Assembly: GCF_012932215.1 (NCBI RefSeq)
Contig: NZ_CP048788.1
Coordinates: forward strand, 310,001-374,000
Length of the DNA: 64,000 bases
Direction of reading: 5' to 3'
Source: Roseobacter ponti
GTDB lineage: Bacteria > Pseudomonadota > Alphaproteobacteria > Rhodobacterales > Rhodobacteraceae
Both the position numbers and the translations under genes were made by a program. Below, piece by piece: positions 13,679 through 41,848 of this stretch (position 1 is the stretch's first letter; each line of letters begins with the position of its first letter). The notes under the pieces were generated by a model. The model did not search any database and was not told the origin of the DNA. It was given only the letters and a program-made list of their open reading frames with translations.

Positions 13679-13707
13679 ATTACATGACTGACTTTGGGAA
13701 ACCCCGG

Positions 13708-14697: not shown

Positions 14698-14698
14698 T

Positions 14699-15505: not shown

Positions 15506-15508
15506 GCC

Positions 15509-20800: not shown

Positions 20801-20809
20801 AAATACAAA

Positions 20810-20827: not shown

Positions 20828-20850
20828 CCACATAACGACGGGGACATAAC

Positions 20851-26708: not shown

Positions 26709-27890
26709 TCAGGCCAGTGCCTGCATCACACCCCGCAGTTCAGCCAGGCCCCGCATCCGGCCGATCAGCGGATAGCCGGGCGCACTTTCTCTGTCACGGT
26801 CCGTGAGCAGTTCCTGCCCGTGGTCCGGGCGCATCGGGATCTGACTGTCGGCGCGCCCGGCGGTCGCGCGTCGTTTTTCTTCATTCAGCAGGGCACGAAT
26901 AACCGCGACCATGTCTGTGTCACCGTCCAGATGAGAAGCCTCGAAGAAGTCAGGTCGCTCCGGATCAGGCCCGGGTAGCCTCCGGGTGTTTCGCAGGTGA
27001 GCAAAGTGAATTTTTGAACCGAGTTTTGTGATGAAATCCACCGCGTCGAACCCTGGTGCAACACCAAGAGACCCGGTGCAGAAAGTCGCGCCGCTCGATG
27101 GCATATCGACCGCATCCAGAACGCGCGCGTAGTCCTCCGTCGACGACATTACCCGTGGCAAACCGAGCAGCGGGAAAGGCGGATCATCCGGATGGCAACA
27201 TAACCTGATCCCGAGCCGCCCTGCATGTGGTGCCACTTCTGCCAGAAAATCGATCAGATTGCTTCGCAGACGGTCAGGGGTCACTGCCCGGTAAGTGTCC
27301 AGACGCGCTTTTACATCCTCAAGCGTCCAGTTATCGTTGGCTCCCGGTAACCCCGCAATAATAGTCTGACGCAGTGTGGCCCGCTCCTCCTCCGGCATCG
27401 CCTGAAATCGCGTTCGGGCAGTGTCGTGCAGGGCTGCGTCATAATCGTCGCCCGCGGCAGGGCGGCGAAGAATGAAGAGATCAAAAACCGCAAAATCCAG
27501 CAGGGAAAACCGCATCGCGGTGCCGCCGTGCGGTTGCGGTTCACGCAATACGGTGCGGGTCCAGTCGAGGATGGGCATGAAATTGTAGCAAACGGTGGCG
27601 ATACCTTCGCTGGCCAGGTTGGTCAGACTGGTCTTATAGTGATGGATATCCTCAGAAAAATCCTTGCCGCCGGTCTTGATCATCTCAGAAACCGGCAGGC
27701 TTTCCACAACGTCCCAGGCAAAACCGGCAGCCTCCAGCGCCTGTCGCCGTGTCCGGATGTCTTCGCGGCTCCAGACATAACCGGGCGGGATGTGGTGCAG
27801 TGCAGTGACGATGCCTTCAACACCCGCCTGATGAAGATCACCAAGCCGGATCTGATCATCCGGCCCGAACCAGCGCCAGCATTGTTTCAT
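26709..27890 (-). CDS. uxuA: Mannonate dehydratase
   Basis: 393 residues. Dehydrates D-mannonate to 2-keto-3-deoxy-D-gluconate (KDG). The xylose-isomerase-like TIM barrel family signatures are present: CWRWFGPDDQIRLGDL, GIVTALHHIPPGYVW, VCYNFMPILDWTRT, RLCCHPDDPPFPLLGLPR and GSKIHFAHLRNTRR, which hold the Mn-binding His/Cys/Asp residues. The ATG at 27890 gives an ATGA overlap with the preceding gene and an AAAGGA 8 bases upstream; ATG 27899 is less well spaced. It is the last gene of the 14-gene leftward cluster and is followed by a terminator. Confidence 0.95.
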   Translation of the reverse strand: MKQCWRWFGPDDQIRLGDLHQAGVEGIVTALHHIPPGYVWSREDIRTRRQALEAAGFAWDVVESLPVSEMIKTGGKDFSEDIHHYKTSLTNLASEGIATVCYNFMPILDWTRTVLREPQPHGGTAMRFSLLDFAVFDLFILRRPAAGDDYDAALHDTARTRFQAMPEEERATLRQTIIAGLPGANDNWTLEDVKARLDTYRAVTPDRLRSNLIDFLAEVAPHAGRLGIRLCCHPDDPPFPLLGLPRVMSSTEDYARVLDAVDMPSSGATFCTGSLGVAPGFDAVDFITKLGSKIHFAHLRNTRRLPGPDPERPDFFEASHLDGDTDMVAVIRALLNEEKRRATAGRADSQIPMRPDHGQELLTDRDRESAPGYPLIGRMRGLAELRGVMQALA

Positions 27891-28939
27891 GGTTGCCATC
27901 CTTTGAACATAGGGTGTGTGTCCGGCAGGGGTAAATTTACATACGTTGCCGTACGGTCAGCGCTGTACATTGCAGTTACAAGCTCAATCGATGCGATCCC
28001 TTCCGCGAGGGTGACTGCGGCGCCGTTCACTCCCCGCAACGCCTGCGCGACCCCGGTCAGAAATCCCTCAAACCCGACCGGTGCCACAGGTGTTGTCGAC
28101 ACGATCCTGTCAACGGCCTCCTGTTTTGCCGGGTCCCGCGCTGTGAAGATCCATGTGCCCGTCCCGGGCGCGTAGGGCTCAGAGCCCGATGTCGCAGTCA
28201 GGTGCTCAAACACCAGTCTGATCCGGCTTTCATTGGTGGCGGCGCCGAGGGTTATACTGCTCGACGCGAGAGCACCGTTCTGCATCTCGAAGCTGATCGT
28301 GGCACAGTCTTCTGTCTCGATATCGTTGACGCGCGTGGTCATCATTGCAGCGACACGCGAAACCGGGCCCATGAAATGTGTGAGCAGATCATGGTTGTGA
28401 ATAGCATGGCCGAGCACGGCGCCGCCCTGTTCGCCGGCCCAGGTGCCACGCCATGGCACGGCGTAATAATCCGCGCCCCGGGACCAGTGGGTTTCGACCG
28501 ACGCGACCTGTGGTTTTCCGGCAAGATCTTCTGCAATCAACCGTCGCAACTGATTGAAAGCCGGGCCCCAGCGGTACTGGAAGACTGGAAAAACCTTTTT
28601 TCCACTAGTCTTTGCAGCCTGGGCAATGAGGTGCGCGCCCTCAAGAGATGTGGCCAGAGGTTTTTCGCAAATCACGTGTTTGCCGGCCTCCAGCGCGTTC
28701 AGACAGACCGGCACATGCAGATGCGGGGGCAGGCAGATGTCGACGAGGTCAATATCAGGATCATTCAGCGCGGCCATAACATCCTCCGCCACGGCAAAGG
28801 TATCGTTCTGGCGGAGTTCTTCGGCGCGTGCTGTGTTCTGATCAACGACCGTCAGGACCTGGTACTTTTCAGGCAATCGCCGGTAGGCCAGCAGGTGCTC
28901 GCGCCCGATGCCTGCGCCAAGGATGGCCACCCGGATCAT
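27887..28939 (-). CDS. Gfo/Idh/MocA family oxidoreductase (a)
   Basis: 350 residues. N-terminal Rossmann domain with AILGAGIGREH, and the family Lys motif CEKPLAT. The C-terminal substrate domain includes GAVLGHAIHNHDLLTHFMGP, with the HNHD in place of the usual GxHxxD. It is an NAD(P)-dependent dehydrogenase acting on a sugar, inositol or sugar acid; the exact substrate is unknown. ATGA overlaps on both sides show tight translational coupling with uxuA and the next oxidoreductase. It is one of four members of this family in the cluster. Confidence 0.88.
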   Translation of the reverse strand: MIRVAILGAGIGREHLLAYRRLPEKYQVLTVVDQNTARAEELRQNDTFAVAEDVMAALNDPDIDLVDICLPPHLHVPVCLNALEAGKHVICEKPLATSLEGAHLIAQAAKTSGKKVFPVFQYRWGPAFNQLRRLIAEDLAGKPQVASVETHWSRGADYYAVPWRGTWAGEQGGAVLGHAIHNHDLLTHFMGPVSRVAAMMTTRVNDIETEDCATISFEMQNGALASSSITLGAATNESRIRLVFEHLTATSGSEPYAPGTGTWIFTARDPAKQEAVDRIVSTTPVAPVGFEGFLTGVAQALRGVNGAAVTLAEGIASIELVTAMYSADRTATYVNLPLPDTHPMFKGWQP

Positions 28940-29943
28940 CTTCGTTTGCCCTCAGCCATTTCCTGCGCTTTCAGCGCCAGTTCCATTGCGGTGAAACAGT
29001 GCTCCTGTCGCATCGCCGTTTCCGTACGATTGCGTATGTCGTCAGCAAGGCGCCTGAAGTAAGGCAGTCCGGCGTCGCGTGCATCAATCTTCTCGCAGCG
29101 CGATCCGTTGACAAGAATGAGATGATCGGTTCCGGGTGCTCCTCCGACGTCAACGTATTTCCGCAACTCGATGTAGCCGTCCGTCCCGAGAAGGGTCAGA
29201 CGACCGTCGCCCCAGGTTGGTAAAGCATCGGGCGTGTACCAGTCGACGCGGATGTAGCCGGTGCCTTTTTCGCTGCGCAGCGAAATCTCTCCAAAATCCT
29301 CCAGTCCGGGATCCTGGCTGTTGGCATAATTATTTGTAAAAGCGTGAGAAATTTCGGCTGTGTCTGACCCGGTGAAGTGCAGAAACTGATCAATCTGGTG
29401 AGAGGCGATATCGGTCAGTATCCCGCCGTACCGGTCGCGCTGAAAAAACCAGTCAGGCCGGGTATCCCGGTTCAGACGGTGGGGGCCAAGACCGGTGGTG
29501 TGAACAACCCTGCCGATGGCGCCGGCCGCCACAAGGTCATCAGCCACAGTAACAGCGGGAACTTCAAAGCGTTCCGAGAAATTCACCGACCAGATGCGGC
29601 CTGTCTCAGCCACGCAGGCTTTGATCTCACCAAGTTGTGAAAGGGTTGTGCATCCTGGTTTATCGGTCATCACATCCATACGCTTTCGCATGGCACGCAC
29701 CGCCAGCGACGCTCTGTCGGAGGGGATAGCAGAGATCAGCGCAAGATCTGCACCTGTCTCCAGGGCCTGCTCAGGGGACGAAAACCGATTCAGATCCGGA
29801 AAGCGTGTTTCAAATCCGGAAAGTGTCTCTGGTGTTCCTTCCGTCCAGTACCCGAGACAGCGCGCGCCGGTTTTCAGCATATTCTCCGTCATGCCGTAGA
29901 TATGGCGGTGGTCGAGGCCGAGGGCGATAAATGAAAGGGTCAT
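28936..29943 (-). CDS. Gfo/Idh/MocA family oxidoreductase (b), divergent nucleotide-binding loop
   Basis: 335 residues. Overall family layout with DKPGCTT (Lys of the EKP motif, here DKP) and GGILTDIASHQIDQFLHF (substrate His region DIASHQID). The N-terminus reads FIALGLDHRHIYG, so the canonical GxGxxG loop is missing, and cofactor preference cannot be guessed. Substrate unknown. Coupled by ATGA to both neighbours. It is the most divergent of the four oxidoreductases in this operon. Confidence 0.85.
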   Translation of the reverse strand: MTLSFIALGLDHRHIYGMTENMLKTGARCLGYWTEGTPETLSGFETRFPDLNRFSSPEQALETGADLALISAIPSDRASLAVRAMRKRMDVMTDKPGCTTLSQLGEIKACVAETGRIWSVNFSERFEVPAVTVADDLVAAGAIGRVVHTTGLGPHRLNRDTRPDWFFQRDRYGGILTDIASHQIDQFLHFTGSDTAEISHAFTNNYANSQDPGLEDFGEISLRSEKGTGYIRVDWYTPDALPTWGDGRLTLLGTDGYIELRKYVDVGGAPGTDHLILVNGSRCEKIDARDAGLPYFRRLADDIRNRTETAMRQEHCFTAMELALKAQEMAEGKRR

Positions 29944-30974
29944 ATCCGGCTCACTTTCGTGCGCGTGCCGCTCTTTGCTGCGCGCTCCATGGTGTCGATC
30001 ACAGCATGCGCCATCAGAGCGCTTTTGCCGGTGGCCAGTGGCTCTGTGCCCTTTTTCAGCGCCCGGGCGAAATCCTCCAGCACAGACTGGTGCCAGGCGT
30101 GGGTAAATGCCATCGGGTCTGCGCCGCCGCCGGTTCCCCCGGCCGTGCCAAAGCTTTCGGTGCGTCCGTCCATGTGCTGCAGGGTCAGCACGCCGGATGC
30201 AAGATGCGCCGCGGCTTTCGTGCCCTGAAGTGTGATGCTTTCGGCGGCACCGGGATATGCTGCTGTTGTAGCCGTCAGGCTGCCGACCGCGCCGCTCTCC
30301 AGTTCGAACAGTGCTCCGGCCAGGTCTTCAGCTTCAAGACGGTGCAGCGGTGTGCGGTGCATGACCGCCTGAAGGCAGGTCACAGGGCCGAGCAGCCAGA
30401 GCATCAGATCAAGTGTATGTATGGCCTGGCTGATCATCACACCGCCGCCGTCACGGGCATATGTGCCCCGCCCCGGCACATCATAGTATGACTGATCGCG
30501 CCACCATGGCACGCGCACGTCCACTGTGGCGATTCTGCCCAGGGTACCGTCACCGATTGCTTTCTTCAGCTGCAAGGAGGCCGCGCGTGCCCGGTGCTGA
30601 AACACGATGCCCAGAGGAATTCCCGCCCGGTCGCAGAGGCTGACGATGTCACGGGCGACTTCGAGGCTTCGCTCTATGGGCTTTTCCATCAGGATGGGGC
30701 GGGTATTGCCGGCGAGAGCCCGGACAATCTCCTGCCGCGCATCGGGTGGCGTCGCGATAATGGCAAAATCCGCATCTGCTGCCGCAAAGGACCGGGCGTC
30801 AGGAAAGACGCCAACGTCATAACCCAGCACCGTCTTTGCTTTCTGAGCGAAAGCGTCGGCGCGCGCGGGGTCGCGCCCCAGAACACCTGAAAGAGTGAGA
30901 CGCGGCCGGGCATCGCGGATCGCCAGCAGATGTGTTCCGGCGACCATGCCGAGCCCTGCCAGAACGACCTTCAC
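29940..30974 (-). CDS. Gfo/Idh/MocA family oxidoreductase (c)
   Basis: 344 residues. Rossmann loop LAGLGMVAGTH, family motif MEKPIERS and substrate-domain signature GGGVMISQAIHTLDLMLWLL with the catalytic-type His (IHTLD). It probably oxidises or reduces a sugar or sugar-acid hydroxyl with NAD(P). Overlaps gene (b) and the kinase gene by 4 bases each. A specific substrate cannot be read from sequence. Confidence 0.88.
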   Translation of the reverse strand: MKVVLAGLGMVAGTHLLAIRDARPRLTLSGVLGRDPARADAFAQKAKTVLGYDVGVFPDARSFAAADADFAIIATPPDARQEIVRALAGNTRPILMEKPIERSLEVARDIVSLCDRAGIPLGIVFQHRARAASLQLKKAIGDGTLGRIATVDVRVPWWRDQSYYDVPGRGTYARDGGGVMISQAIHTLDLMLWLLGPVTCLQAVMHRTPLHRLEAEDLAGALFELESGAVGSLTATTAAYPGAAESITLQGTKAAAHLASGVLTLQHMDGRTESFGTAGGTGGGADPMAFTHAWHQSVLEDFARALKKGTEPLATGKSALMAHAVIDTMERAAKSGTRTKVSRI

Positions 30975-31858
30975 GGCGCATCTTTCGGGATGATTGCACC
31001 AGGGTACTGCACCACCCTTGCCGCGCAGTTGTGTCCTGCCATCAGAGCGCCGGCCTGATCCGCGCCGGTCATCAGAGCTGCGAGATAGCCGCCGTTAAAG
31101 CTGTCCCCGGCCGCCGTGGTATCAACGACCGTCGCCGCCGGGGAATAGGCCTGGTCGATCCTTTCCCCAAGGCTCAGCGGGCCGTCGGCACCGCGTTTCA
31201 GCGCACCCGTGAGGCTTAGCGCTGTAAAGCGGTCTGCCACCTCGCCCGCACTCTGATCAAAAAGCGCCATCTCGTCATCAAGTGATGGCAGGCCGATGTC
31301 GGCACGCGCCCAGAGCATCGTATTTACCGCGCGCGCGGTCGCGGGGTTTTCCCAAAGGCGGGGCCGGTAATTGCTGTCGTAGGCAAATTTCACATCCGAC
31401 TGCACAAGCCAGTCGAGCAGGGAAAGCCGGACCTTGTGGGGCAGGATCGCCATGCTGATGCCCGACAGATACACAAGGTCATACCCTTCAAGTGCGGAGA
31501 AATCCGGCTCCTGCCCGTACTGAAACATCTCGCGGGCCGCGGAACTGCCACGCCAGTAGGTAAAGGACCGCTCGCCGTCATCCGACGTGGTAATGGCATA
31601 AAGCCCGGGTGAGCGACCGGGCAGGGTTGTGATGCCGCCGGTCCCGATGTCCTGATCTGCGATGAAGTGACGGATGCGGTCAGAGAAGGGGTCATCGCCA
31701 AGGCAGGTGACGTAATCCACTTCGCATTGCGGCGCCGCGCGCTTGAGATAGATCGCTGTGTTCAGGGTGTCACCCGCAACGCCCAGCGTCGCGGCGGTTT
31801 CGTCCCTGACGGACAGCTCGATCATGGCCTCACCGGCGCAGGCGATACGCAGGGTCAT
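30971..31858 (-). CDS. PfkB family sugar kinase, probable 2-keto-3-deoxygluconate kinase
   Basis: 295 residues. Ribokinase fold with N-terminal GEAMIELSVRD, AGDTLNTAIYLKR (PfkB signature 1 region) and the C-terminal DTTAAGDSFNGGYLAAL, holding the catalytic Asp and anion hole. The ERSFTYWRGSSAAREMF segment resembles KdgK enzymes that bind KDG. With UxuA and UxaA-type dehydratases in the same operon, phosphorylation of KDG to KDPG is the natural role (inference). No KDPG aldolase gene lies in the window. ATGA overlaps on both ends. Confidence 0.85.
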   Translation of the reverse strand: MTLRIACAGEAMIELSVRDETAATLGVAGDTLNTAIYLKRAAPQCEVDYVTCLGDDPFSDRIRHFIADQDIGTGGITTLPGRSPGLYAITTSDDGERSFTYWRGSSAAREMFQYGQEPDFSALEGYDLVYLSGISMAILPHKVRLSLLDWLVQSDVKFAYDSNYRPRLWENPATARAVNTMLWARADIGLPSLDDEMALFDQSAGEVADRFTALSLTGALKRGADGPLSLGERIDQAYSPAATVVDTTAAGDSFNGGYLAALMTGADQAGALMAGHNCAARVVQYPGAIIPKDAP

Positions 31859-32736
31859 CGCTGCTCTCTTTTCCAGATAATCAGGCCCGAGCCTACGATC
31901 ACCAGCGCGCCGACGATCGTCCAGACCTCGGGGGGGTGATCAAACACGAGCCAGCTCAGTACCGCGATGTAGATCATGAAGGAATAGGTGTAGGGCATCA
32001 GAGTATTTGCAGTCCCGAAACGATGTGCGCTGGTCAGCAGCTGATGACCGCTCCAGCCGCCGGCACCCATCGCAAAGAGCAGCACCCAGCCGGTAAGGTT
32101 TTCAGGCGAGACCCAGACCCAGACCGCCAGCGGTAAAAGCAGCACTGTGCCGAGTGCACCCATGATGAACTGCATCGTTTCGGTCGCCACGAGCCCGGCC
32201 AGACGGCGGGTCATCAGCGAATAGAGTGCCAGTGCTGTGGCATTATAAACCGGCAGGATCATGGCGGGATGAAAGGCCTCACCGAACGGGCGGATCACGA
32301 TAAGCACGCCGACAAAGCCCATCACAATCGCGCCCCACCGCCAGGGGCCGATCTGTTCTTTCAGGACGGTCAGTGACAGAAAACACACGATGATCGGGCT
32401 GGAGAACATGATGGCTGAGATGACCGTCAGTGGCAGAAAGTTCAGCGAATAAAAGTTACACATCGTTGCCGAAATCAGCAGCACGGCGCGAAACATCACC
32501 TGACCCAGATAGGGCGTGCTGAGCCTGTCGCGGGACAGCCCGCCCGAGATTGCGATGGCCAGCGAAATCGCAAAGTGTCCGGCATAACGCATAAACGCCA
32601 GCTGAAACGCCGGGATGCCCGCGAGCACAAGCCATTTGGCCGACGTATCCACCAGCGCAAAAAAGAACCAGGCGGCGAGCATCATCAGGATGCCCAGCTG
32701 CGGTCGGTCCTCAATTGCGCCGGCGGTAATGGCCAT
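31855..32736 (-). CDS. EamA/DMT family membrane transporter
   Basis: 293 residues, ten predicted helices in two EamA repeats (LGILMMLAAWFFFALVDTSA at the start; MGAGGWSGHQLLTSAHRF in the second half). DMT proteins usually export small metabolites; the substrate is unknown. Embedded between the kinase (4-base overlap) and the HIBADH-like gene (adjacent, no gap), it is clearly part of the catabolic operon. It may export a toxic intermediate or act as a second uptake path. Confidence 0.88.
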   Translation of the reverse strand: MAITAGAIEDRPQLGILMMLAAWFFFALVDTSAKWLVLAGIPAFQLAFMRYAGHFAISLAIAISGGLSRDRLSTPYLGQVMFRAVLLISATMCNFYSLNFLPLTVISAIMFSSPIIVCFLSLTVLKEQIGPWRWGAIVMGFVGVLIVIRPFGEAFHPAMILPVYNATALALYSLMTRRLAGLVATETMQFIMGALGTVLLLPLAVWVWVSPENLTGWVLLFAMGAGGWSGHQLLTSAHRFGTANTLMPYTYSFMIYIAVLSWLVFDHPPEVWTIVGALVIVGSGLIIWKREQR

Positions 32737-33624
32737 TTACTTACCGAATTTTGCCGAGAAGTAATCGATCTGCTCGGCGACCAGTGTATCGCCGCGGCCC
32801 TCTTCTACAGCGCCGTTCAGGGCGGCGAGCGCGCATTTAGACATGATGCTGTCGACACCTGCGTCCTTGGCCATTTGTGTGTAATAGCCGACGTCTTTTG
32901 CGGCGTTTTTCACTGCAAAAGCAAGCATCTGTGCGTTCCCGTCGACGCCGTAGGCCTTGACGAAATCCATCATGCCCGAGGCCAGTGGCCCGGCGGACAT
33001 CACATTGTAAAGCTGTTCGCGGTCCACACCTGCGACGTCGGCCATGGCAAAGGCCTCGGACATGGCGTTGGCCGTGGTCATCGCGAAAAAGTTATTGATC
33101 AGTTTGATGGTGTGACCGGCCCCGGATGCACCGAGGTGGAAGACGTTTTCGCCCAGGTCATTCAGAACCGGGGTGATGCTGTCAAAGGCGGCCCTGTCGC
33201 CTGCACCCATGATATTGAGCTTTCCGTCTTTGGCGTGGCTGGGGGTGCGTCCGAGCGGCCCGTCAAGGTACTGCCCGCCCGCGGCTGCGACTTTTTCCGC
33301 CAGCATCTGTGTGGAGCCTGGCAGAGAGGTGCCAAAGTCGATCACTACAGTGCCCGGTTTCAGCCCGGCGATCACGCCGTCCTCCCCCAGCATACGCGAT
33401 TCCACCTGTTCGGAGGTGCCCATGCAGAGCATCACGATCTCTGACGCCTCTGCGACGGATTTCGCGTTTTCAGCTTCCGTGGCACCGCGCCCGACGGCCT
33501 GATCAACATAGGTGCGGTCACGGTTGCCGAGCACTGTGACGTCATAGCGTTTGTCCTGCAGGCGGCCGACCATTGCGCCGCCCATCAGCCCGAGGCCGAT
33601 GAATCCGATTGCTGGTTTTGTCAT
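32737..33624 (-). CDS. NAD(P)-dependent beta-hydroxyacid dehydrogenase (HIBADH/GarR-like)
   Basis: 295 residues. N-terminal Rossmann loop IGFIGLGLMGGAM, substrate motif DGPLGRTPSHAKDGKL and the catalytic Lys in GHTIKLINNFF. The family oxidises 3-hydroxyacids or reduces tartronate semialdehyde; in this setting it could act on a uronate, aldonate or C3 fragment. It may replace the missing UxuB/UxaB-type reductase, but that is speculation. Its start lies 12 bases after the stop of the dioxygenase gene. Confidence 0.88.
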   Translation of the reverse strand: MTKPAIGFIGLGLMGGAMVGRLQDKRYDVTVLGNRDRTYVDQAVGRGATEAENAKSVAEASEIVMLCMGTSEQVESRMLGEDGVIAGLKPGTVVIDFGTSLPGSTQMLAEKVAAAGGQYLDGPLGRTPSHAKDGKLNIMGAGDRAAFDSITPVLNDLGENVFHLGASGAGHTIKLINNFFAMTTANAMSEAFAMADVAGVDREQLYNVMSAGPLASGMMDFVKAYGVDGNAQMLAFAVKNAAKDVGYYTQMAKDAGVDSIMSKCALAALNGAVEEGRGDTLVAEQIDYFSAKFGK

Positions 33625-33636
33625 TAAAAATTCCTC

Positions 33637-34521
33637 TCAGATGGTGTCGAAGGCACGTTTTTTCATGCCTTTCTGGATTTCGTAAATGGAGATCGGGACA
33701 TCCGGCTGTGGCTGTGGAATGCGCACGGGGATGTCTTTGAGCCGCGGGTTCAGCGTGGGTTCACCGCACAGCATCCGGGTGTTGTAATCGGCAATGCCGT
33801 CCCATTTCGTCATGGATCCCATGATCGGGAAGGCATCGGCGGCCATCATCTCGTAAAAGAGAATACGCCGCGCGCGGTCAGATGTATTGAGGGCCGAGCC
33901 GTGCACGATCCGCCCGTGATGAATGCTGACAGATCCTGCAGGGCCCGTGAGCTGCACCGCATCATCGGGGTTCAGACCGTTCTCCTCAGGCAGCATGGCA
34001 CCGGCGAAAACGCCGTCCGTGTGGTGATCGAAAACCGGCCCTTTATGGCTGCCGGGATAAACCATCAGCGGTCCGTTTTCCGGCGCCATATCATCGAGGA
34101 TCACGCCGATGGCGAGAATGTCGTCATTGGTATGAGGATAGAAAGCATAATCCTGATGCCATTCGACCGCTGCCCCGTATCCGGCTGATTTCATGTTAAG
34201 TTTTGTGGTGTGCAGGCGCAGATCCGGGCCGATCAGATCACGGGCAGGGGCGAGGATCAGGTCGGAATACATCAGCTTGCGCATTGCCCCGGAGATCGTG
34301 TGCGGCAGTTTGATCCGGCGCAGGCGGGGGTTTTGCTGCGTATGGCTGTCTTCGAGATCGAGGCGGTCGTTGGAGGCGGTCATGCCGGCGGCTTCTTTCT
34401 CGAACCGGGCAATCTCGGCATAAATTTTTTCCAGCCATTCCGGCGGGATCCGGTTTTCGAGCACAAGATATCCATGCTCGCGGTAATGAGCGATCTGCTG
34501 CGGTGTCAGGGTTTCAGCCAT
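33637..34521 (-). CDS. Phytanoyl-CoA dioxygenase (PhyH) family protein (a)
   Basis: 294 residues. Fe(II)/2-oxoglutarate oxygenase fold: the facial triad is visible as His122 and Asp124 in WHQDYAFYPHTND and His207 in HHGRIVHGS, with an Arg (RARR, ~217-219) for 2-oxoglutarate. MVYPGSHKG and IGVILDDMAPENGPL are family hallmarks. All catalytic ligands are present, so an active oxygenase is likely. The ATG at 34521 has GGGAG 9 bases upstream; the longer frame to 34605 lies within the preceding gene. Substrate unknown; O-demethylation or hydroxylation of a sugar derivative is one possibility. Confidence 0.88.
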   Translation of the reverse strand: MAETLTPQQIAHYREHGYLVLENRIPPEWLEKIYAEIARFEKEAAGMTASNDRLDLEDSHTQQNPRLRRIKLPHTISGAMRKLMYSDLILAPARDLIGPDLRLHTTKLNMKSAGYGAAVEWHQDYAFYPHTNDDILAIGVILDDMAPENGPLMVYPGSHKGPVFDHHTDGVFAGAMLPEENGLNPDDAVQLTGPAGSVSIHHGRIVHGSALNTSDRARRILFYEMMAADAFPIMGSMTKWDGIADYNTRMLCGEPTLNPRLKDIPVRIPQPQPDVPISIYEIQKGMKKRAFDTI

Positions 34522-35527
34522 AACGTTTTTCTCCCGGGGCGGATGGCGCAAGCTGCGCTTCGATCTCAAGGGCGACCGCGAGTGTCCGGCTGGCATCTGC
34601 CACATCGATCAGCGGGGGCGCTCGGTTTTCCATCACGTCGATAAAATGATCCAGCTGCCGGTCGAGCGGTACGGTGGCGTCCCCGGGTCCGCTCAGGTCG
34701 CCGGCAATGGCCGGGCGCGACCAGTCGGTGCCCTGCCAGCGGGTCATCGACGGGAAACTCACCGCGCCTTTTGTCCCGGTAATCCACATCATGTCCTGAC
34801 CCGTTGTGCCGATATGCGGGTTCTCGCCGGTGCCGGCCTCAAACCCCCAGGGGCTGGGCGTGGTGTCGGCAAAGCTGATGGTACCGGTCGCACCGCTCTC
34901 AAACGCCAGCGCCACAGCGCCACTTTCGATGCGATCTGTGCCGCGCAGGCTGCGCCCCGGCAGCGCGGCGGTGGCGGCAATTTCCCCCAGCAGGTGCCGC
35001 AGAATGTCGATGTCGTGCACGATGTTGATCATGACCGGGCTGCCGCCTGCCGTGCGCCAGTTGCCGGCGAAATACTCGTCAGGTTTGCGCATCGCCCAGA
35101 TCAGCGCGGCCGTGACGGGCGTGCCGATCCCGCCGCCGGCAATCAGCTGGCGCAGACGGGCAATGCTGCGGTGATAGCGACGGTGATGGCCCACCAGAGA
35201 CTGCACGCCGGCCTTCGCCACCGCGGCCTGCAGCATTTTCGCACCGGCAAGGTCGCCGGCCACCGGTTTTTCGATCAGCATGTGCCAGCCACGCGACGCG
35301 GCATAGCATCCGTGGGTCGCGTGCAGATGCGTGGGCGTGGCGATAATCACCCCGTCCACGTCATCCGGCATCTCCGACATATCCGCAAAACGGGTCACGT
35401 CGTCACCGGGCAGGCAGGCGGGGTCAGGATCAACAAGCCCCGCCAGCGCACAGCGCGGATGCGTCCGGACCGCCGCCAGATGGCGCGCGCCGATCAGGCC
35501 GCCTCCGACAACGACGATCCGTTTCAC
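34514..35527 (-). CDS. Gfo/Idh/MocA family oxidoreductase (d)
   Basis: 337 residues. Rossmann loop VVVGGGLIGARH, family motif IEKPVAGD, and NIVHDIDILRHLLGE as the substrate-domain His/Asp region. GHHRRYHRSIARL resembles members acting on inositol or sugar acids. It sits between the altronate dehydratase-like gene (ATGA overlap) and dioxygenase (a) (8-base overlap), separated from the other three oxidoreductases of the cluster, so it may act at a different step. Substrate unknown. Confidence 0.88.
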   Translation of the reverse strand: MKRIVVVGGGLIGARHLAAVRTHPRCALAGLVDPDPACLPGDDVTRFADMSEMPDDVDGVIIATPTHLHATHGCYAASRGWHMLIEKPVAGDLAGAKMLQAAVAKAGVQSLVGHHRRYHRSIARLRQLIAGGGIGTPVTAALIWAMRKPDEYFAGNWRTAGGSPVMINIVHDIDILRHLLGEIAATAALPGRSLRGTDRIESGAVALAFESGATGTISFADTTPSPWGFEAGTGENPHIGTTGQDMMWITGTKGAVSFPSMTRWQGTDWSRPAIAGDLSGPGDATVPLDRQLDHFIDVMENRAPPLIDVADASRTLAVALEIEAQLAPSAPGEKRYG

Positions 35528-37032
35528 ATGACTGCTCCGATTTGCCAGGGCACGAATTCGTAATCCCCGAGGCCCTGAGCTTCGGATTTGCTGGCCTCGC
35601 CTGAGGCCACGCGCAGAAACAGCTCATAGATCTCGCGGCCCTTTTCCTCGACGCTCACGCCTTCGGTCAGGATGGTGCCGGCATCGACGTCCATATCTTC
35701 GGACATGCGTTTTGCCATGGCGGAATTGGTCGCGACCTTGATGGTCGGGCTGGGTTTGGAGCCAAAGGCTGAGCCCCGCCCGGTGGTGAAACACACCAGA
35801 TTGCAGCCCCCCGCGATCTGCCCCGTGACCGAGGCCGGGTCATAGCCGGGGCTGTCCATAAAGGTGAAACCGCGCGCCGTGACGGGTTCGGCGTATTTGT
35901 AAACGCCGGTCAGGGGCGAGGTACCGCCCTTGGCTGCCGCCCCAAGCGATTTTTCCAGGATCGTGGTCAGTCCGCCTTTTTTGTTGCCGGGCGAAGGGTT
36001 ATTGTCCATCGAGCCCTTGTTGCGCGCGGTGTAGTCTTCCCACCAGCGGATCAGACCAATCAAACGGTCTCCGGTGGCCCGGTCCACGGCGCGCCGGGTC
36101 AGCAGATGTTCGGCCCCATAGATCTCGGGCGTTTCGGCAAGGACACCGGTGCCGCCCTGTGCTGTCAGCAGATCACATGCATACCCGAGGGCCGGGTTGG
36201 CGGTGATCCCGGACCAGGCATCCGATCCGCCACATTGCAGCGCGACTTTAAGCTCTGACGCCGGGCAGGGCGTACGCGTTGCCTGACTGGCGAGCGGCAG
36301 CATGGCTTCGATCTTCGCGATGCCGGCCTCGATGGTGCGCCGCAGACCTGCAACCGACTGGATATTCATCACCTGAAAGGTCGGGCCCTGTTTCAGACCG
36401 TAAGCTTCGAGCAGCCAGTCGATCTGGTTCATTTCGCATCCGAGGCCCACCATCAGCACACCGGCATGGTTGGGGTGGCGGGCGTAACCCCACATGACGC
36501 GCTGCAACGCCTCGAACCCGTCACCATCGCCGGCCATGCCACAGCCGGTGCCGTGCACGAAGGCCACAACACCATCCACATTCGGATACTCCTCCAGCCG
36601 TTCCGGCGTGAAATGCGCGGCGATCTGGCGCGCGGCCGTGGCCGAGCAGTTCACCGAAGTGACGATGGCGATGTAATTGCGCGTGCCGACCGTGCCGTTT
36701 TCACGACGGTAGCCCATAAAGGTGTCGCGCCGATCTTCCGGGACGGGCGTAACAGCGCGCAGGTCGGTCGAGAATTCATACTCGGCTTCGGTGTTGCGGA
36801 ACTCGACGTTCTGAGTGTGAACGTGATCGCCCGCGGCAATGTCTCCGGCGGCGTAGCCGATGATCTGCGCGTATTTGCGCACCGCCTCGCCGGCGGCGAT
36901 GTCCCGGGTGGCGATCTTGTGGCCGGAGGGGATGAGGGCGCGGGTTGTGGTGTCTTCGACGGTAACGCCGGCTTCAAGCGCGCGGGTTGCTGTCACGACA
37001 TTGTCGGACTTATCAAGGCGGACGGTGTCCAT
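35524..37032 (-). CDS. uxaA: UxaA family dehydratase (altronate dehydratase-like)
   Basis: 502 residues. An N-terminal SAF domain (~1-85, with GHKIATRDIAAGEAVRKYAQ) is followed by the UxaA/GarD catalytic domain: YRRENGTVGTRNYIAI, HGTGCGM, GLGCEMNQ, LQCGGSDAWSGITANPALG and GGCNLVCFTTGRGSAFG. The conserved Cys residues fit the metal-dependent active site. D-altronate to KDG is the reference reaction, but galactarate-type substrates are possible. The ATG at 37032 follows AAAGGAGA. It is 10 bases from the upstream dioxygenase gene. Confidence 0.9.
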   Translation of the reverse strand: MDTVRLDKSDNVVTATRALEAGVTVEDTTTRALIPSGHKIATRDIAAGEAVRKYAQIIGYAAGDIAAGDHVHTQNVEFRNTEAEYEFSTDLRAVTPVPEDRRDTFMGYRRENGTVGTRNYIAIVTSVNCSATAARQIAAHFTPERLEEYPNVDGVVAFVHGTGCGMAGDGDGFEALQRVMWGYARHPNHAGVLMVGLGCEMNQIDWLLEAYGLKQGPTFQVMNIQSVAGLRRTIEAGIAKIEAMLPLASQATRTPCPASELKVALQCGGSDAWSGITANPALGYACDLLTAQGGTGVLAETPEIYGAEHLLTRRAVDRATGDRLIGLIRWWEDYTARNKGSMDNNPSPGNKKGGLTTILEKSLGAAAKGGTSPLTGVYKYAEPVTARGFTFMDSPGYDPASVTGQIAGGCNLVCFTTGRGSAFGSKPSPTIKVATNSAMAKRMSEDMDVDAGTILTEGVSVEEKGREIYELFLRVASGEASKSEAQGLGDYEFVPWQIGAVM

Positions 37033-37042
37033 CAGGTCTCCT

Positions 37043-37993
37043 TTACGCGCAGAAAGGCGCGTCGCTTTGCCAGCGGTGGATCGGAATATGCGGCTCCTGT
37101 GACAGGGTCGCGCGGGCATCTTCCCACATAAACCGCCACCTGCGCCAGTCCGTAAGCATGGTTTCGGGGGCCGCAGCGCTGCGCGCAATAAACTCCGGGA
37201 AATGCGCGCGCCCGGTCGGCTGTCCCGTCACGTTGTAGCGAAGATCGAACGACCAGCGGAACCCGTCTGTGCGGTTGACCCGCGAGGCATGCGGCGTCAG
37301 CGGATGAAAGAGCACGACCCCACCTGCGGGCACTGGCAGGGGCACGGCGGCAGCCTCATCAATGAAATCATCGGCAATGGCCGTCTGTACCCTCGGGCAG
37401 TGCGGCAGCATTCTGTCGGCGGCTTCCGGAATGACCTGCAGACACCCGTTTTCCAGGGTGGCGTCTGTCATAGCGATCCAGACGGTGATCATGTCGGTCT
37501 GATCCGCTTCGGCGTGCCCGACCCCGCGATCCTGATGCCAGTCGGTGGCGGTGATATGGGCGCGGATCTCGTCACCCTTCAGCGTGCGTGCAGGGGGTTT
37601 GATGCGCACATGCTGGATCGGGTTCGAGGTGATTTCCGGACCGATCAGGCTTTGCACGATATCGAGGATTTCTTCGCAGCGCAGCAGATCAAAAACCGCT
37701 GGCCCGAAGTGCATCGGCGTGTCAGGCGTGATCTCCTCGCCCGGCAGGCTGATGTCCATCGGCTGAAACCAGTCGCAGCCGGCGTCATATCCGACCTGCA
37801 GCTTATCCCAGAAACTCTCAAGCCGGTCTGGTGGGGTGGTGATCCGCCCCTCTGCATGCCAGCGGGCGCAGAGCTGATCAAGAAGGCCCTCGTATTCGTC
37901 CTTTACAGCATCCCGGGTGACCTTCGGAACCACGTCCGGCACAACCAGATACCCGTCGGTTCTGAAGGATTGAATCTGTTCGTGCGTGAGCAT
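37043..37993 (-). CDS. Phytanoyl-CoA dioxygenase (PhyH) family protein (b)
   Basis: 316 residues. It retains the iron triad His153/Asp155 in WHQDRGVGHAEADQ and His235 in PLTPHASRVN, with Arg246 nearby for 2-oxoglutarate. It is clearly different from the other PhyH protein of this operon: longer N-terminal region, little shared sequence outside motifs, so it probably has a separate substrate. The ATG at 37993 has a strong AGGAGGA upstream. It lies between the TRAP large permease gene and the UxaA-like gene. Substrate unknown. Confidence 0.88.
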   Translation of the reverse strand: MLTHEQIQSFRTDGYLVVPDVVPKVTRDAVKDEYEGLLDQLCARWHAEGRITTPPDRLESFWDKLQVGYDAGCDWFQPMDISLPGEEITPDTPMHFGPAVFDLLRCEEILDIVQSLIGPEITSNPIQHVRIKPPARTLKGDEIRAHITATDWHQDRGVGHAEADQTDMITVWIAMTDATLENGCLQVIPEAADRMLPHCPRVQTAIADDFIDEAAAVPLPVPAGGVVLFHPLTPHASRVNRTDGFRWSFDLRYNVTGQPTGRAHFPEFIARSAAAPETMLTDWRRWRFMWEDARATLSQEPHIPIHRWQSDAPFCA

Positions 37994-38006
37994 CTCGTCC
38001 TCCTGA

Positions 38007-39632
38007 TCACGGAAGCAGCAACGTAACAATCGGGGGCCAGATCAGCAGAACAGACAGTGCGCAGAGCTGGATGCCGATAAACGGCAGAAAGCCTTTGAAA
38101 ATGTCGGTCAGGCTGATGTGTGGCGGTGCGACTGATTTGAGGTAAAAGGCCGCGGGGCCAAAGGGCGGGCTGAGAAAGCTGACCTGCATGTTCATACAGA
38201 ACACGACGCCAAACCAGATCGCCACGTGACGCGGGTTGAGTTCACCGAAGACGCCGATTTCCTCAATCGGCAGACGCTGCACGATCGGCAGAAAAACCGG
38301 GATGATCAGCAGCACAATTCCGACCCAGTCCATGAACGCACCCATAAAGAGCAGGATGACCATCATCGCGAGAATAATACCCATGGTCGGCAGATCGGAA
38401 CCCACGATGAAATCGGCGACATAAACCGGGCCGCCGGCGATGGTGTAGGCACCGGCGAGGGCCGCAGCACCGATGGTCACCCAGATAATTGTGCCGGTGG
38501 ATTTCAGCGTGCGCATCAGGCTGTCCCAGACCAGATCAAAGGAGCCCTCGCCACGCAGAATGGCGATAACGAGCACGGCGAGCGCGCCCATGCCGGCGGC
38601 TTCGGTGATGCCGGTAATACCGCCATAGATTGACCCCATGACCACGCCGATGACGACGATGGGTGGCACAAGCCCTTTGCCCATGTTCCATCCGGTGGCA
38701 GTGGTTTTGCGCCCCAGCACGGCAAACATCATGATAAAGGCCACAATGACCGCACCGCCAAACCATGGCAGATAATCGGCTGTGCCATAGGCGATATCGG
38801 CGCCGGTATTGCGGGCATTCTGCCCGGCCAGCTCAAAGAAAAGGGCGCGCAGAAAGAGCACGGTGGAGAACCCAGCGACCAGCACCGACAGGAAAGCCAG
38901 AAAGAGCTTCAGCTTTTCAATGCCCACCGGTTCACCTTCGACGGGGTCGGGCAGGGGTGCGTCTTCGGGGCGCATCTGGGTGCGGATGATGATGTAGATT
39001 ATGATAAAGCTCGCGAGCATGAAGCCCGGCAGGAAGGACGCGGTAAAGAGCGCCTTTATCGAGGTCTCGGTGATCAGACCATAGATGATCAGCACAATTG
39101 AGGGCGGGATCATCGTACCAAGGCTGCCAGAGGCACAGATTGTCCCGATGGCAAGGTTCTGGTTGTATCCCAGGCGCAGCATCTGCGGCAGCGCGATCAG
39201 GCCGAGCAGAACAACCTCGCCGCCGATGATGCCCGACATCGCCGCCATGATGACCGCCATGATCGAGGTCACGATGGCAATGCCGCCGCGCGTGCGGTTC
39301 AGCCAGATGTTCAGCGAGGAATACATATCCTTTGCAATGCCCGACCGTTCCAGCAGGGCCGCCATGAAGATAAAGAGCGGAATGGATATGAGTACGTAAT
39401 CGGTCAGCAGCCCGTATATCTTCTGCGCCAGAATATTGAGCGGCCCCGAGCCCGGTCTGCCCGTGAGGATGCCGTCGCCAAACGTGAGCGGGTTCATCAG
39501 AAGTGTCGGTTCAAACTTCATCACCAGCACGAGAACCGCGAGGATTGCCGAGGCAAATCCGAGTGGCATCCCGATGGCGAGAAGCAGGACAAGGCCCAGC
39601 ATCAGGACCATCGAAATTGTTCCGATATCCAT
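38007..39632 (-). CDS. TRAP transporter large permease subunit (DctM family)
   Basis: 541 residues with 12 or more hydrophobic helices. It is the ion-coupled transport subunit in the inner membrane. GIIGGEVVLLGLIALPQM, ICASGSLGTMIPPSIVLIIY and MNMQVSFLSPPFGPAAFYL are DctM signatures. It is longer than the ~425-residue classical DctM because of an insertion around residues 220-330. The start shares one base with the small-subunit stop (TGATG). Long M subunits of this kind pair with long Q subunits, as here. Confidence 0.94.
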   Translation of the reverse strand: MDIGTISMVLMLGLVLLLAIGMPLGFASAILAVLVLVMKFEPTLLMNPLTFGDGILTGRPGSGPLNILAQKIYGLLTDYVLISIPLFIFMAALLERSGIAKDMYSSLNIWLNRTRGGIAIVTSIMAVIMAAMSGIIGGEVVLLGLIALPQMLRLGYNQNLAIGTICASGSLGTMIPPSIVLIIYGLITETSIKALFTASFLPGFMLASFIIIYIIIRTQMRPEDAPLPDPVEGEPVGIEKLKLFLAFLSVLVAGFSTVLFLRALFFELAGQNARNTGADIAYGTADYLPWFGGAVIVAFIMMFAVLGRKTTATGWNMGKGLVPPIVVIGVVMGSIYGGITGITEAAGMGALAVLVIAILRGEGSFDLVWDSLMRTLKSTGTIIWVTIGAAALAGAYTIAGGPVYVADFIVGSDLPTMGIILAMMVILLFMGAFMDWVGIVLLIIPVFLPIVQRLPIEEIGVFGELNPRHVAIWFGVVFCMNMQVSFLSPPFGPAAFYLKSVAPPHISLTDIFKGFLPFIGIQLCALSVLLIWPPIVTLLLP

Positions 39633-40537
39633 CAGCTTTTCCCCGGTGTGTTAGATTGTATTGACCCGCGTGTGACGTCGAGATCGCCCGTTCCGTCGGC
39701 GCCGACTGCGGCTCTGAGACGGTCCAGTTCGTCCTGATCAATGTCATCGGCGGCGGTGTGGATCACCGGCTCGGCGTTCCAGTCGGAGATGAGGTTGACG
39801 ATGGCCTGAAAGGCGACCAGCACCATCACAAGCAGAACCATCGGTTTGAGTGTCGCCGGGATCGGCGGGTCAAAGACGGTGCCGAATGTTTCCCAGCGGT
39901 AAAATTTGTCGAAAGCCTCACCGTATCCGCCGTACACGAGGAAAAAAGCAAAGGTCACGATGAGCGTGGTCGAGATGATGTCACAGACCCTCTGCAGCCA
40001 TCGGGGCATCATGTCATAGAGCAGGAAGATGCGGATGTGGCTGCGCTGCTGCATGGCGTAAAGCCCTGCACAAAGAAACACGAAACCCGCCAGCCAGAGC
40101 GACAGTTCGTTGGCCCAGAGGGTCGGTGCCTCGAAGACATAGCGCAGGATCACTTCGTAGATCATCACCGAGCAGAGCAGCACGATCAGCATCATGGTCA
40201 GACGGCCGATGAAAACAGCGAGCCTGTCGAGCGGCTTCCAGCTTTCAAACTCCATCGGCGCGCGGCGCACGGTTCTGACGCCGATGATACCGAAGACCGG
40301 CAGCAGCAGCAGGGCCGCCCAGTCCACCGCATCCGCGTATCCGCCAAAGAGGCCCGTCATGCTGTCCGTCACATCTATGCGTGCAAACAGGGCACTCAGT
40401 TTATCGTATTGAGAGGGATCTTTAGGCGGAAACCACGAGAGGGTAAAGGCCGGAAGGTGCCAGGTCAGCCAGCCGGCGCAGAGAATAAAGGCGAGCGGGG
40501 CAAGCCACTCGACCAGGCTTCCGGATTTTTCTTCCAT
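39632..40537 (-). CDS. TRAP transporter small permease subunit (DctQ family), long form
   Basis: 301 residues, well above the usual 160-200 for DctQ. The conserved DctQ core is at ~110-240 (RLTMMLIVLLCSVMIYEVIL, NELSLWLAGFVFLCAGLYAM, RSHIRIFLLYDMMPRWLQR). Two extra hydrophobic segments lie in the N-terminal 100 residues, and a charged tail (ADDIDQDELDRLRAAVGADG) follows. It follows the SBP gene after a 101-base gap that contains a terminator hairpin. Confidence 0.9.
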   Translation of the reverse strand: MEEKSGSLVEWLAPLAFILCAGWLTWHLPAFTLSWFPPKDPSQYDKLSALFARIDVTDSMTGLFGGYADAVDWAALLLLPVFGIIGVRTVRRAPMEFESWKPLDRLAVFIGRLTMMLIVLLCSVMIYEVILRYVFEAPTLWANELSLWLAGFVFLCAGLYAMQQRSHIRIFLLYDMMPRWLQRVCDIISTTLIVTFAFFLVYGGYGEAFDKFYRWETFGTVFDPPIPATLKPMVLLVMVLVAFQAIVNLISDWNAEPVIHTAADDIDQDELDRLRAAVGADGTGDLDVTRGSIQSNTPGKS

Positions 40538-40590
40538 GATGTCCCCCCCGGACGCTTTGGCCGATTATTTTTTATGTGTCCCGGCCAGAG

Positions 40591-40622
40591 ACAAAAAGAC
40601 CCCGCCTTTTGGCAGGCGGGGT
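40591..40622 (-). terminator. Intrinsic (partial) terminator between TRAP SBP and permease genes
   Basis: On the minus strand an 8-bp perfect stem ACCCCGCC/GGCGGGGT (40622-40599, 8-base loop) is followed by CTTTTTGT (40598-40591). It lies 17 bases after the SBP stop. The placement suggests it trims most transcripts after the abundant binding protein and lets some read into the permease and the downstream catabolic genes. Confidence 0.8.
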
Positions 40623-40638
40623 CCGTTTTCAGGTCAGC

Positions 40639-41661
40639 TTACTGCTTGAGGCCAAGCTGCTCGAGGTAGGCAAGGTGGCTTTCCACCAGGGCTTTGGCTT
40701 CGGGCGTGTCGGCGAACTCCGGCCATGTGGCCTGAGCCGCAGCACGGAACTTCGCCAGCTCTTCAGGGGCCCACTGCGACAGGGTCACACCCTGCTCGCG
40801 CAGCGTTGCGGCGGCTTCGGCGTTCTTTTTCTCGAACGTCAGAGCGGTGCGCAGCGCCAGCGCTTCCATCGCAACCTTCATGATCTTCTGGTGGTGCGCA
40901 GGCATCGCGTCGAATACGGCCTTGTTGCACGCCAGGTGATCAGACGGCATGGAGTGAAAGCCGGGGAAGTTGGCATATTTCACGATGTCATAGAGACCCA
41001 AGCCCACGTTGTTGGCGAGGCCCGATGCATCCGCACCATCAATGATGCCTGTTTCCAGAGCAGTAAAGATCTCTGTAAAGTCCATCACGATCGGCGAAGC
41101 GCCGAGCTTTTCAAAGATCTTTGTTTCCATGCCGGGGGGCGAACGGAATTTCCAGTCTTTGAAGTCTTCGACCTTGGCGATTGGCTTGGAAGAGGCAAAG
41201 CTCTCCTGGCCGTAAACCCACCAGCCGATCAGCTCCATGCCGTATTTGTTATAAAGCGGTGCAGCCGCCTCACGGCCACCGCCGTAATAGAGCCAGCTCA
41301 GCTGCTGATAGGGCGTGTCGTAGCCACCCATGATGTCGCCCACAAACTGGAACGCTGAGTTCTTGCCGGTCTGGTAGCCACCGCCGGTCATGTCACAGTC
41401 AAGAATGCCCGTGGATGCAGCGTCAAATGTCTCAACCGATTTCACAACGGAAGACGAATAGAACATCTCGACGTTGATTTCGCCGTTTGACATGTCCTGG
41501 ATGTCTTCTACGTATTGAGCGGCCAGCTTGCCGGACACCGTTTCGGGTGCATAGTGTGTCTGAATGCGCAGGTTTGTTGTGTCGGCCGACGCGGTAAATG
41601 CGGTCGAAGCAGCGAGTGCTGCCACAGCGGCGACGGACGCCGCCCTTTTTATCATTGTCAT
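40639..41661 (-). CDS. TRAP transporter substrate-binding protein (DctP family)
   Basis: 340 residues with a Sec signal peptide (RAASVAAVAALAASTAFTAS, cleavage near residue 26). Periplasmic receptor for an organic acid. KFRSPPGMETKIFEKLGASP contains the conserved Arg that salt-bridges the ligand carboxylate, and TALETGIIDGADASG is also typical. The ligand is probably a sugar acid or uronate given the operon. First gene of the leftward cluster, with its promoter in the 187-base divergent region shared with the GntR gene. Confidence 0.94.
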   Translation of the reverse strand: MTMIKRAASVAAVAALAASTAFTASADTTNLRIQTHYAPETVSGKLAAQYVEDIQDMSNGEINVEMFYSSSVVKSVETFDAASTGILDCDMTGGGYQTGKNSAFQFVGDIMGGYDTPYQQLSWLYYGGGREAAAPLYNKYGMELIGWWVYGQESFASSKPIAKVEDFKDWKFRSPPGMETKIFEKLGASPIVMDFTEIFTALETGIIDGADASGLANNVGLGLYDIVKYANFPGFHSMPSDHLACNKAVFDAMPAHHQKIMKVAMEALALRTALTFEKKNAEAAATLREQGVTLSQWAPEELAKFRAAAQATWPEFADTPEAKALVESHLAYLEQLGLKQ

Positions 41662-41739: not shown

Positions 41740-41848
41740 GCTGAGCAGGGTGCCCGCGCAAGAAAATATTTTATTTTCGCATAATTTTGATATTTTGTTT
41801 GAATTTCGAAAATTTCGCCGTAACCCTGAAGGCCAGCGGGGGGCTATC

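Follow-up and report, generated by a model that had tools for sequence, protein, structure and literature searches.

The window analysed here, 64,000 nucleotides of the Roseobacter ponti genome (positions 310001-374000 of contig NZ_CP048788.1, in a genome of 3.96 Mb), contains 14 minus-strand genes at 26709-41661 that encode a TRAP transporter, sugar-acid enzymes and two proteins of the PhyH type, PhyH1 and PhyH2. This operon is part of a larger sugar-acid island that extends from 26709 to 50261. We read the region, tentatively and at somewhat less than an even chance, as a modular sugar-acid catabolic island with an optional oxygenase entry and two exits. What is new is the arrangement, which is conserved; the enzyme families in it are known, and the system as a whole is not of an entirely novel kind. 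A first-pass annotation, made from the sequence alone, had recognised the 14 genes; all are present as open frames in the same direction and their Pfam and NCBIfam matches agree with the identities given to them, while a GntR gene and the seven adjoining enzyme genes of the island had been omitted. The description of these genes as mostly overlapping by four bases was too strong, as exactly this overlap is found at only 5 of the 13 junctions; seven more junctions have spacings from -13 to +13 bases, and the genes for the substrate-binding protein (SBP) and DctQ are separated by 101 bases. Alignments with homologues place the starts of PhyH1, UxaA and PhyH2 near 37993, 37035 and 34524, so that the long frames listed for them begin too early.

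PhyH1 was found in 67 of 394 sampled genomes of the Rhodobacteraceae (matches with E of 1e-60 or better and at least 56% identity; one match of 43%, in G194, was dropped), and UxaA, with matches below 68% identity dropped, in 107 of the 394. These and the following genome counts take no account of relatedness. UxaA is carried by 59 of the 67 genomes with PhyH1 and by 48 of the 327 without it, proportions that differ with a Fisher P of 1e-31, uncorrected for kinship. Gene order was scored in the 80 loci closest to the query among 328 confirmed PhyH1 loci, using gene maps made by tblastn with flanks of at most 10 kb, so that more distant genes were missed. In these 80 loci the gene immediately after PhyH1 is UxaA in 70 cases and the one immediately before it is DctM in 68, and the gene order of the island is kept in many of the genera that bear PhyH1, which number 67 of 393 sampled. 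The first-pass annotation had suggested a search for the gene set across the family and had held that its idea of a new pathway would fall if the dioxygenases were never conserved with the dehydratases; the set turns out to be conserved, and the counts above remove this objection. From the conserved order and its recurrence in many genera we therefore conclude that the gene set is more than a product of chance. PhyH2 behaves similarly. Matches of at least 63% identity are present in 37 genomes, 36 of them with UxaA, and a second PhyH2-like group (44-50% identity) in 35, of which 31 have UxaA. Within the UxaA genomes the two oxygenases associate with each other, PhyH2 being found in 28 of the 59 with PhyH1 and in 8 of the 48 without it (P=0.0009). 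The closest PhyH1 among the matches listed, at 95%, is from a metagenome-assembled genome of Roseobacter (L076). Culturable carriers of the cluster include Tateyamaria pelophila (L127) and Tateyamaria omphalii (L149), and Ruegeria atlantica (L145) has PhyH1 with no PhyH2 close by. PhyH1 is mostly confined to the family, since only 3 of 289 genomes across the class, the source genome included, have it at E 1e-45. One genome of another family (L181) carries TRAP-PhyH1-Gfo1-HIBADH-EamA followed on the same strand by a cycloisomerase-like gene (60%), a short-chain dehydrogenase/reductase (SDR) and a FAH-family hydrolase (FAHD); a genome from the class sample (L180) carries TRAP-PhyH1-UxaA-PhyH2-EamA with DenD, IlvD and FAHD.

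PhyH1 and PhyH2 are optional additions to a core formed by the transporter and UxaA. Of twenty stretches taken, 19 surrounded UxaA copies that had been selected for having no adjacent PhyH1, and no match to PhyH1 or PhyH2 was found in any of these 19 loci. In 12 of them DctM runs directly into UxaA, and among these 12 the beta-hydroxyacid dehydrogenase HIBADH is found in 10, the oxidoreductase Gfo1 in 9 and EamA in 9. Moreover, PhyH1 and both PhyH2 groups are absent from 32 of the 107 UxaA genomes. It is because the core occurs without them that we call the oxygenases optional, and this fits feeder enzymes that act before the core. In the search for clues to the substrate we also clustered the open frames that fill gaps in 100 PhyH1 loci and scanned ten representatives for families. 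Besides GntR and LysR regulators and a sigma factor, they comprised an ABC ATPase, AzlC, transketolase halves, an Epimerase-family protein and an aldehyde dehydrogenase, while one frame matched no family; none of the ten fixed the substrate.

Both PhyH proteins are predicted, from their sequences, to be Fe(II)/2-oxoglutarate (2OG) oxygenases. Such enzymes share a facial triad, HxD...H, and a 2OG-binding arginine about 11 residues past the distal histidine. In alignments, H153, D155, H235 and R246 of PhyH1 are invariant in 19 of 19 sequences, as are H123-x-D125, H208 and R219 of PhyH2 in 18 of 18. The model of PhyH1 (pLDDT 83.4) has the PhyH fold, with ThoJ, SnoK, PHYHD1, human PhyH, SyrB2 and EvdO2 as top Foldseek matches; by VIA, many PhyH-fold chains tie for it. 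The nearest solved relatives of PhyH2 are leucine, proline and ectoine hydroxylases, its model is poor (pLDDT 67.1), so that the fold match is weak support, and it fails the test for the ectoine hydroxylase EctD (TIGR02408, 84.7 bits against a cut-off of 336.5). ThoJ, SnoK, EvdO2, EctD and GriE are all fold and sequence-profile matches to the PhyH proteins of the island, but they share about 12-26% identity in the structure matches and for none of the five is a role in sugar-acid catabolism named. Our leading candidate for the reaction is a guess, the removal of an O-alkyl (methyl) group, made because the oxygenases are optional, PhyH1 adjoins the transporter and algal galactans are known to bear O-methyl groups. 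Alternatively, the oxygenases may hydroxylate, open a ring or act on amine-linked substrates. The earlier idea that they strip a modified sugar oxidatively is plausible.

A Pantoea dispersa plasmid (L156, 14062-15948) has two neighbouring PhyH genes, distantly related to PhyH1 and PhyH2 at 37.4% and 35.5%. Behind them come genes for a B12-binding radical SAM protein and an O-methyltransferase. We take this setting to be a different one, perhaps biosynthetic, and set the pair aside.

The loci differ in what lies beyond the core. In 19 of the 80, which we call type B, an SDR gene lies on the strand of PhyH1 and downstream of it. These loci contain UxaA (16 of 19), HIBADH (16), FAHD (15) and IlvD (13); a PfkB kinase of at least 40% identity is found in one of them, and UxuA and UxaC/UxuB in none. 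A further 39 loci have the SDR upstream on the opposite strand, and UxaC/UxuB occur in 25 of these. For the genome counts of UxuA, FAHD and the cycloisomerase discussed below, 50 of the 67 PhyH1 genomes were used, the 17 left out being mostly fragmented. Within 15 kb of PhyH1, FAHD is found in 37 of the 50 and UxuA in 4, and 20 of the 50 lack UxuA altogether. Among UxaA copies of about 57% identity, viewed in six contexts, SDR adjoins UxaA in two and FAHD in one. When the 80 loci are joined with 40 more (some genomes being in both sets), a UxaC or UxuB-like reductase is present in 33 of the 120, and in two loci read in detail UxaC/UxuB stand between the kinase and the second Gfo/Idh gene, Gfo2. 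The UxaC of these relatives passes its cut-off, and the UxuB-like proteins fall below those for fructuronate and tagaturonate reductases. Elsewhere in the source genome there are a UxaC gene and two genes of the KDPG-aldolase family. UxuA and the KdgK-like kinase, together with UxaC/UxuB in relatives, thus look like a separate hexuronate branch, and we favour a shared exit in which SDR and FAHD together yield pyruvate and a C3 hydroxy acid.

The first-pass annotation had seen the whole set as one linear pathway to 2-keto-3-deoxygluconate (KDG), and this does not agree with the scarcity of UxuA near PhyH1 or with the type B loci, which lack UxuA and UxaC/UxuB and in 18 of 19 cases the kinase. 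It had also held that UxaA and UxuA both yield KDG. UxuA passes the mannonate dehydratase cut-off. The UxaA-family protein has the SAF and GD_AH domains and 37% identity to E. coli UxaA, and is at most a candidate altronate dehydratase; it matches GarD (6u7l) with 314.7 bits, and 35524-37035 scores below the cut-off for galactarate dehydratase GarD (TIGR03248, 377.8 against 730.85). The kinase has KdgK (NF052444) as its best-scoring family, yet below the cut-off.

The gene at 49167-50261 encodes an enzyme similar to 3,6-anhydro-L-galactonate cycloisomerase (ACI). It is 61% identical (219 of 358 residues) to the Vibrio enzyme VejACI, compared through PDB chain 5xd7, and scores 513.5 bits with this L-form enzyme versus 130.5 with the D-form enzyme DauB (5olc). 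In an alignment read by eye, the active-site residues that a figure legend of PMC9706016 lists (KxK, Asp, Glu, Glu, Asp, His) are identical to those of 5xd7. L-form ACI function is likely for this gene product, because SCO3480, at only 42% identity to VejACI, is described in the same source as active (PMC9706016). The ACI-like gene would accordingly be one pointing to L-galactose acids of red algae. After matches of 41-43% (in G168, G346 and G008) had been dropped, such genes were found in 30 of the 50 PhyH1 genomes (at least 60% identity), in 22 of 48 genomes with UxaA only (at least 58%) and in none of 30 genomes with neither. Of the 30, 19 have the gene no more than 15.5 kb from PhyH1 and 15 have it no more than 4 kb from FAHD; among the UxaA-only genomes, 9 of the 22 have it at most 15.5 kb from UxaA. 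2-Keto-3-deoxy-L-galactonate (L-KDGal) is the 6-hydroxy form of an intermediate of the L-fucose pathway, for which an SDR and a FAH hydrolase are known. By analogy, the same pair in the island would turn L-KDGal into pyruvate and L-glycerate. L-KDGal is given as the product of ACI in PMC9147760 and PMC9706016, and a 2024 review remarks that its breakdown in bacteria needs further study (PMC11219438).

At three loci (L174, L175 and L178) an ACI-like gene (62%) is near genes that match an alcohol dehydrogenase (30-32%, L-idonate-5-dehydrogenase-like) and an SDR (40-41%, gluconate-5-dehydrogenase-like) of other loci; these are perhaps a C5 oxidation-reduction exit for L-KDGal. At another locus (L034, 16180-17400) a second enzyme of the enolase superfamily, which is under all the NCBIfam cut-offs listed, lies between SBP and DctQ, and relatives of it (at least 40% identity) are found in 21 of 63 full-length loci.

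Gene content, conservation, fold, the pattern of metal- and 2OG-binding residues, the oxygenase-free core and the ACI relationship come directly from the computed results; every reaction of the scheme that follows, the order of its steps and its substrate are our inference. The TRAP transporter would bring in one or more polyhydroxy monocarboxylic acids; the pocket residues of the SBP, viewed by eye, led to no ligand assignment. PhyH1 and PhyH2, when present, would act first: with O2 and 2OG they would make a modified acid usable by the core, and so give the bacterium access to chemically modified sugar acids that may come from red seaweed. The UxaA-family enzyme, IlvD and the ACI-like cycloisomerase would convert the acids to 2-keto-3-deoxy acids, while the Gfo/Idh enzymes may adjust stereochemistry through oxidation and reduction. 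The SDR would then oxidise C4, FAHD would cut the 2,4-diketo acid to pyruvate and a C3 hydroxy acid, and the HIBADH, tartronate semialdehyde reductase-type (TSR) and 2-hydroxyacid dehydrogenases would pass the latter to central metabolism. In parallel, UxuA and the KdgK-like kinase, with UxaC and UxuB-like proteins in relatives, would form a hexuronate-to-KDG branch within the same operon. That the oxygenases unmask O-methylated or anhydro L-galactose-type acids from red-algal galactans, and so feed a TRAP-UxaA-ACI-SDR-FAHD island that leads to pyruvate and glycerate, we regard as distinctly unlikely.

Several observations weigh against an island with two exits. The kinase is kept in 36 of the 39 loci with a divergent SDR, 22 of the 80 loci belong to neither SDR class, and PfkB kinases of 35-42% identity exist in some related loci (L063, L070, L071, L109, L201). 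UxuA is enriched in PhyH1 genomes, being present in 30 of 50 (two as partial matches) versus 5 of 30 control genomes not matched for relatedness (P=0.0002), and this favours some tie to KDG. FAHD is present in all 50 PhyH1 genomes but also in 24 of the 30 controls; it was dropped as a genome-level marker and therefore only its position is informative. FAHD, the kinase and HIBADH all score below their NCBIfam equivalog cut-offs. The association of ACI with PhyH1 is absent once UxaA is given (P=0.22 for the proportions above), so that ACI was rejected as a partner of PhyH1 itself and goes instead with the UxaA core. The solved relatives of PhyH2 work on amino acids or ectoine, not on sugars, and a gene of the FAD amine-oxidase type or LysE accompanies the island in some relatives. 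The kinase and UxuA counts speak for the scheme of the first-pass annotation, a single linear route that starts with oxygenases stripping or rearranging a modified sugar and in which UxaA and UxuA both lead to KDG, the substrate of the PfkB kinase; so do the presence of UxuA and a KdgK-like kinase in the operon itself and the KDPG-aldolase-family and UxaC genes elsewhere in the genome. We nevertheless find this scheme rather doubtful, given the PhyH1 genomes in which UxuA is missing or distant and the type B loci without UxuA or, with one exception, the kinase.

The region might also be an ordinary hexuronate operon, in which D-glucuronate and D-galacturonate reach KDG by way of UxaC, UxuB/UxaB, UxuA and UxaA and the oxygenases and Gfo/Idh enzymes are passengers. 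The UxaC/UxuB-like genes of the 33 loci, a UxaC over its cut-off and the firm match of UxuA would suit it, but a passenger would not be expected to stand immediately ahead of UxaA, as PhyH1 does in 70 of 80 loci, the nearest solved relatives of the SBP by sequence are 4pe3 and then lactate, ketoacid and isethionate binders, and the 19 type B loci have no UxaC, UxuB or UxuA, while the UxuB-like proteins found elsewhere are below the reductase cut-offs; we consider it unlikely. If the oxygenases acted instead on an amino-acid-bearing or N-alkylated sugar acid, of the amino-uronate or Amadori type, an accessory amine oxidase or aminotransferase would carry out the deamination. The kinship of PhyH2 with leucine, proline and ectoine hydroxylases is consistent with this, as is the finding of an FAD amine-oxidase-type gene, aminotransferase or LysE in some relatives; yet such genes are rare (FAD type 4, LysE 3 and aminotransferase 0 of 63 full-length loci) and none was seen within the island in the window, which makes this very unlikely. 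Finally, hydroxylation beside the ether oxygen of 3,6-anhydro-L-galactonate could give a hemiacetal and hence D-galacturonate, which would proceed through UxaC, a reductase and UxaA to KDG. This chemistry is put together by inference, with an ACI-like enzyme for the same acid in the island and hexuronate genes alongside in relatives. ACI, however, is described as opening the ring without oxygen (PMC9147760), and the 19 type B loci, which keep PhyH1, showed no UxaC/UxuB, so that we hold ring opening by the oxygenases to be highly improbable.

The first-pass annotation knew of no described pathway with this enzyme set, and we likewise found no assignment to a substrate in the open-licence literature searched. 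The 3,6-anhydro-L-galactose pathway of Vibrio sp. EJY3 (3,6-anhydro-L-galactose dehydrogenase, ACI, L-KDGal) resembles the island in its cycloisomerase, with 61% identity and aligned active-site residues; here, in contrast, import is by a TRAP transporter, and the ACI-like gene stands with SDR, IlvD and FAHD, with PhyH and UxaA on the other strand. The non-phosphorylative L-rhamnose/L-fucose diketo-hydrolase route uses an SDR and a FAH hydrolase, and the SDR and FAHD of the island, the latter near the model for 2,4-didehydro-3-deoxy-L-rhamnonate hydrolase, are similar; the FAHD is under the cut-off of that model, however, and there are several dehydratases and added oxygenases. The Ashwell hexuronate pathway comprises UxaC, UxuB/UxaB, UxuA, UxaA and KdgK. 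The island has UxuA, a kinase and a UxaA-family protein in common with it, and relatives have UxaC and UxuB-like proteins, but its UxaA is remote from that of E. coli and the oxygenases, the four Gfo/Idh enzymes and the SDR/FAHD pair are foreign to the Ashwell scheme. In the dauA-D cluster of Zobellia, which serves the D-anhydrogalactose of carrageenan, a cycloisomerase of the enolase superfamily is described as acting on anhydro-galactonate (PMC5698469); the likeness is there, but DauB scores far below the L-form enzyme.

Table 1. Genes of the sugar-acid island, in window coordinates, with supporting family and structure matches.
Feature	Position	Strand	Support
TRAP substrate-binding protein (SBP), DctP family	40639..41661	-	PF03480 161.7 bits
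TRAP small permease DctQ	39632..40537	-	PF04290
TRAP large permease DctM	38007..39632	-	PF06808
PhyH1, predicted Fe(II)/2OG oxygenase	37043..37993	-	Pfam PhyH 97.1 bits (cut-off 22)
UxaA/GarD-family dehydratase, SAF and GD_AH domains	35524..37035	-	PF08666, PF04295, PF20629
Gfo/Idh/MocA oxidoreductase 1 (Gfo1)	34514..35527	-	PF01408, PF22725
PhyH2, predicted Fe(II)/2OG oxygenase	33637..34524	-	PF05721 121.9 bits (cut-off 22)
Beta-hydroxyacid dehydrogenase (HIBADH / tartronate semialdehyde reductase type)	32737..33624	-	PF03446, PF14833; NF008592 157.8 bits, below cut-off 397
EamA-family transporter	31855..32736	-	PF00892
PfkB kinase, KdgK-like	30971..31858	-	PF00294; NF052444 259.4 bits, below cut-off 400
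Gfo/Idh/MocA oxidoreductase 2 (Gfo2)	29940..30974	-	PF01408, PF22725
Gfo/Idh/MocA oxidoreductase 3	28936..29943	-	PF22725, PF01408
Gfo/Idh/MocA oxidoreductase 4	27887..28939	-	PF01408, PF22725
UxuA mannonate dehydratase	26709..27899	-	TIGR00695 447.7 bits, above cut-off 199.55; solved mannonate dehydratase 4eac 407.5 bits
GntR/FCD regulator	41750..42538	+	PF07729, PF00392
D-erythronate dehydrogenase-type (DenD)	42502..43485	-	NF043036 363.6 bits, above cut-off 325
Tartronate semialdehyde reductase-type (TSR)	43482..44369	-	TIGR01505 254.5 bits, below cut-off 340.75
SDR oxidoreductase	44572..45333	+	SDR family
IlvD/Edd-family dehydratase	45318..47132	+	NF009560 1005 bits, above cut-off 684
FAH-family hydrolase (FAHD), 2,4-diketo-3-deoxy-acid hydrolase type	47382 (start approximate)..48230	+	NF053535 427.4 bits, below cut-off 500
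D-isomer-specific 2-hydroxyacid dehydrogenase, glyoxylate/hydroxypyruvate reductase-like	48233..49162	+	PF02826; NF009714 204.9 bits, below cut-off 455
3,6-anhydro-L-galactonate cycloisomerase-like enzyme (ACI), enolase superfamily	49167..50261	+	5xd7 E 2.9e-153

Outside the island, the window contains an aldehyde dehydrogenase with two matched stretches that adjoins a DeoC/LacD-type aldolase (10060-13524, minus strand), a metal uptake transporter made up of a ZnuA-type metal-binding protein with an ABC-3 permease nearby (13621-17631, plus strand), and a group at 17914-22170 (plus strand) that looks like urate/allantoin catabolism, with a protein bearing a C-terminal OHCU decarboxylase domain, a cupin and a xanthine/uracil-type permease. 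A large molybdopterin oxidoreductase with 2Fe-2S and 4Fe-4S domains, presumably formate-dehydrogenase-like, is encoded at 58887-61652 (plus strand).

Marine Rhodobacterales recycle much algal carbon, of which modified sugar acids, such as methylated and anhydro forms, are a less understood part. The conserved PhyH1-UxaA set lends itself to transporter and enzyme assays, and because an ACI-like enzyme is paired with SDR and FAHD, the question of bacterial L-KDGal degradation, as raised in the review cited above (PMC11219438), can be tested directly. If true, the reading of the oxygenases as a gateway for red-algal sugars would supply the missing bacterial exit for L-KDGal.

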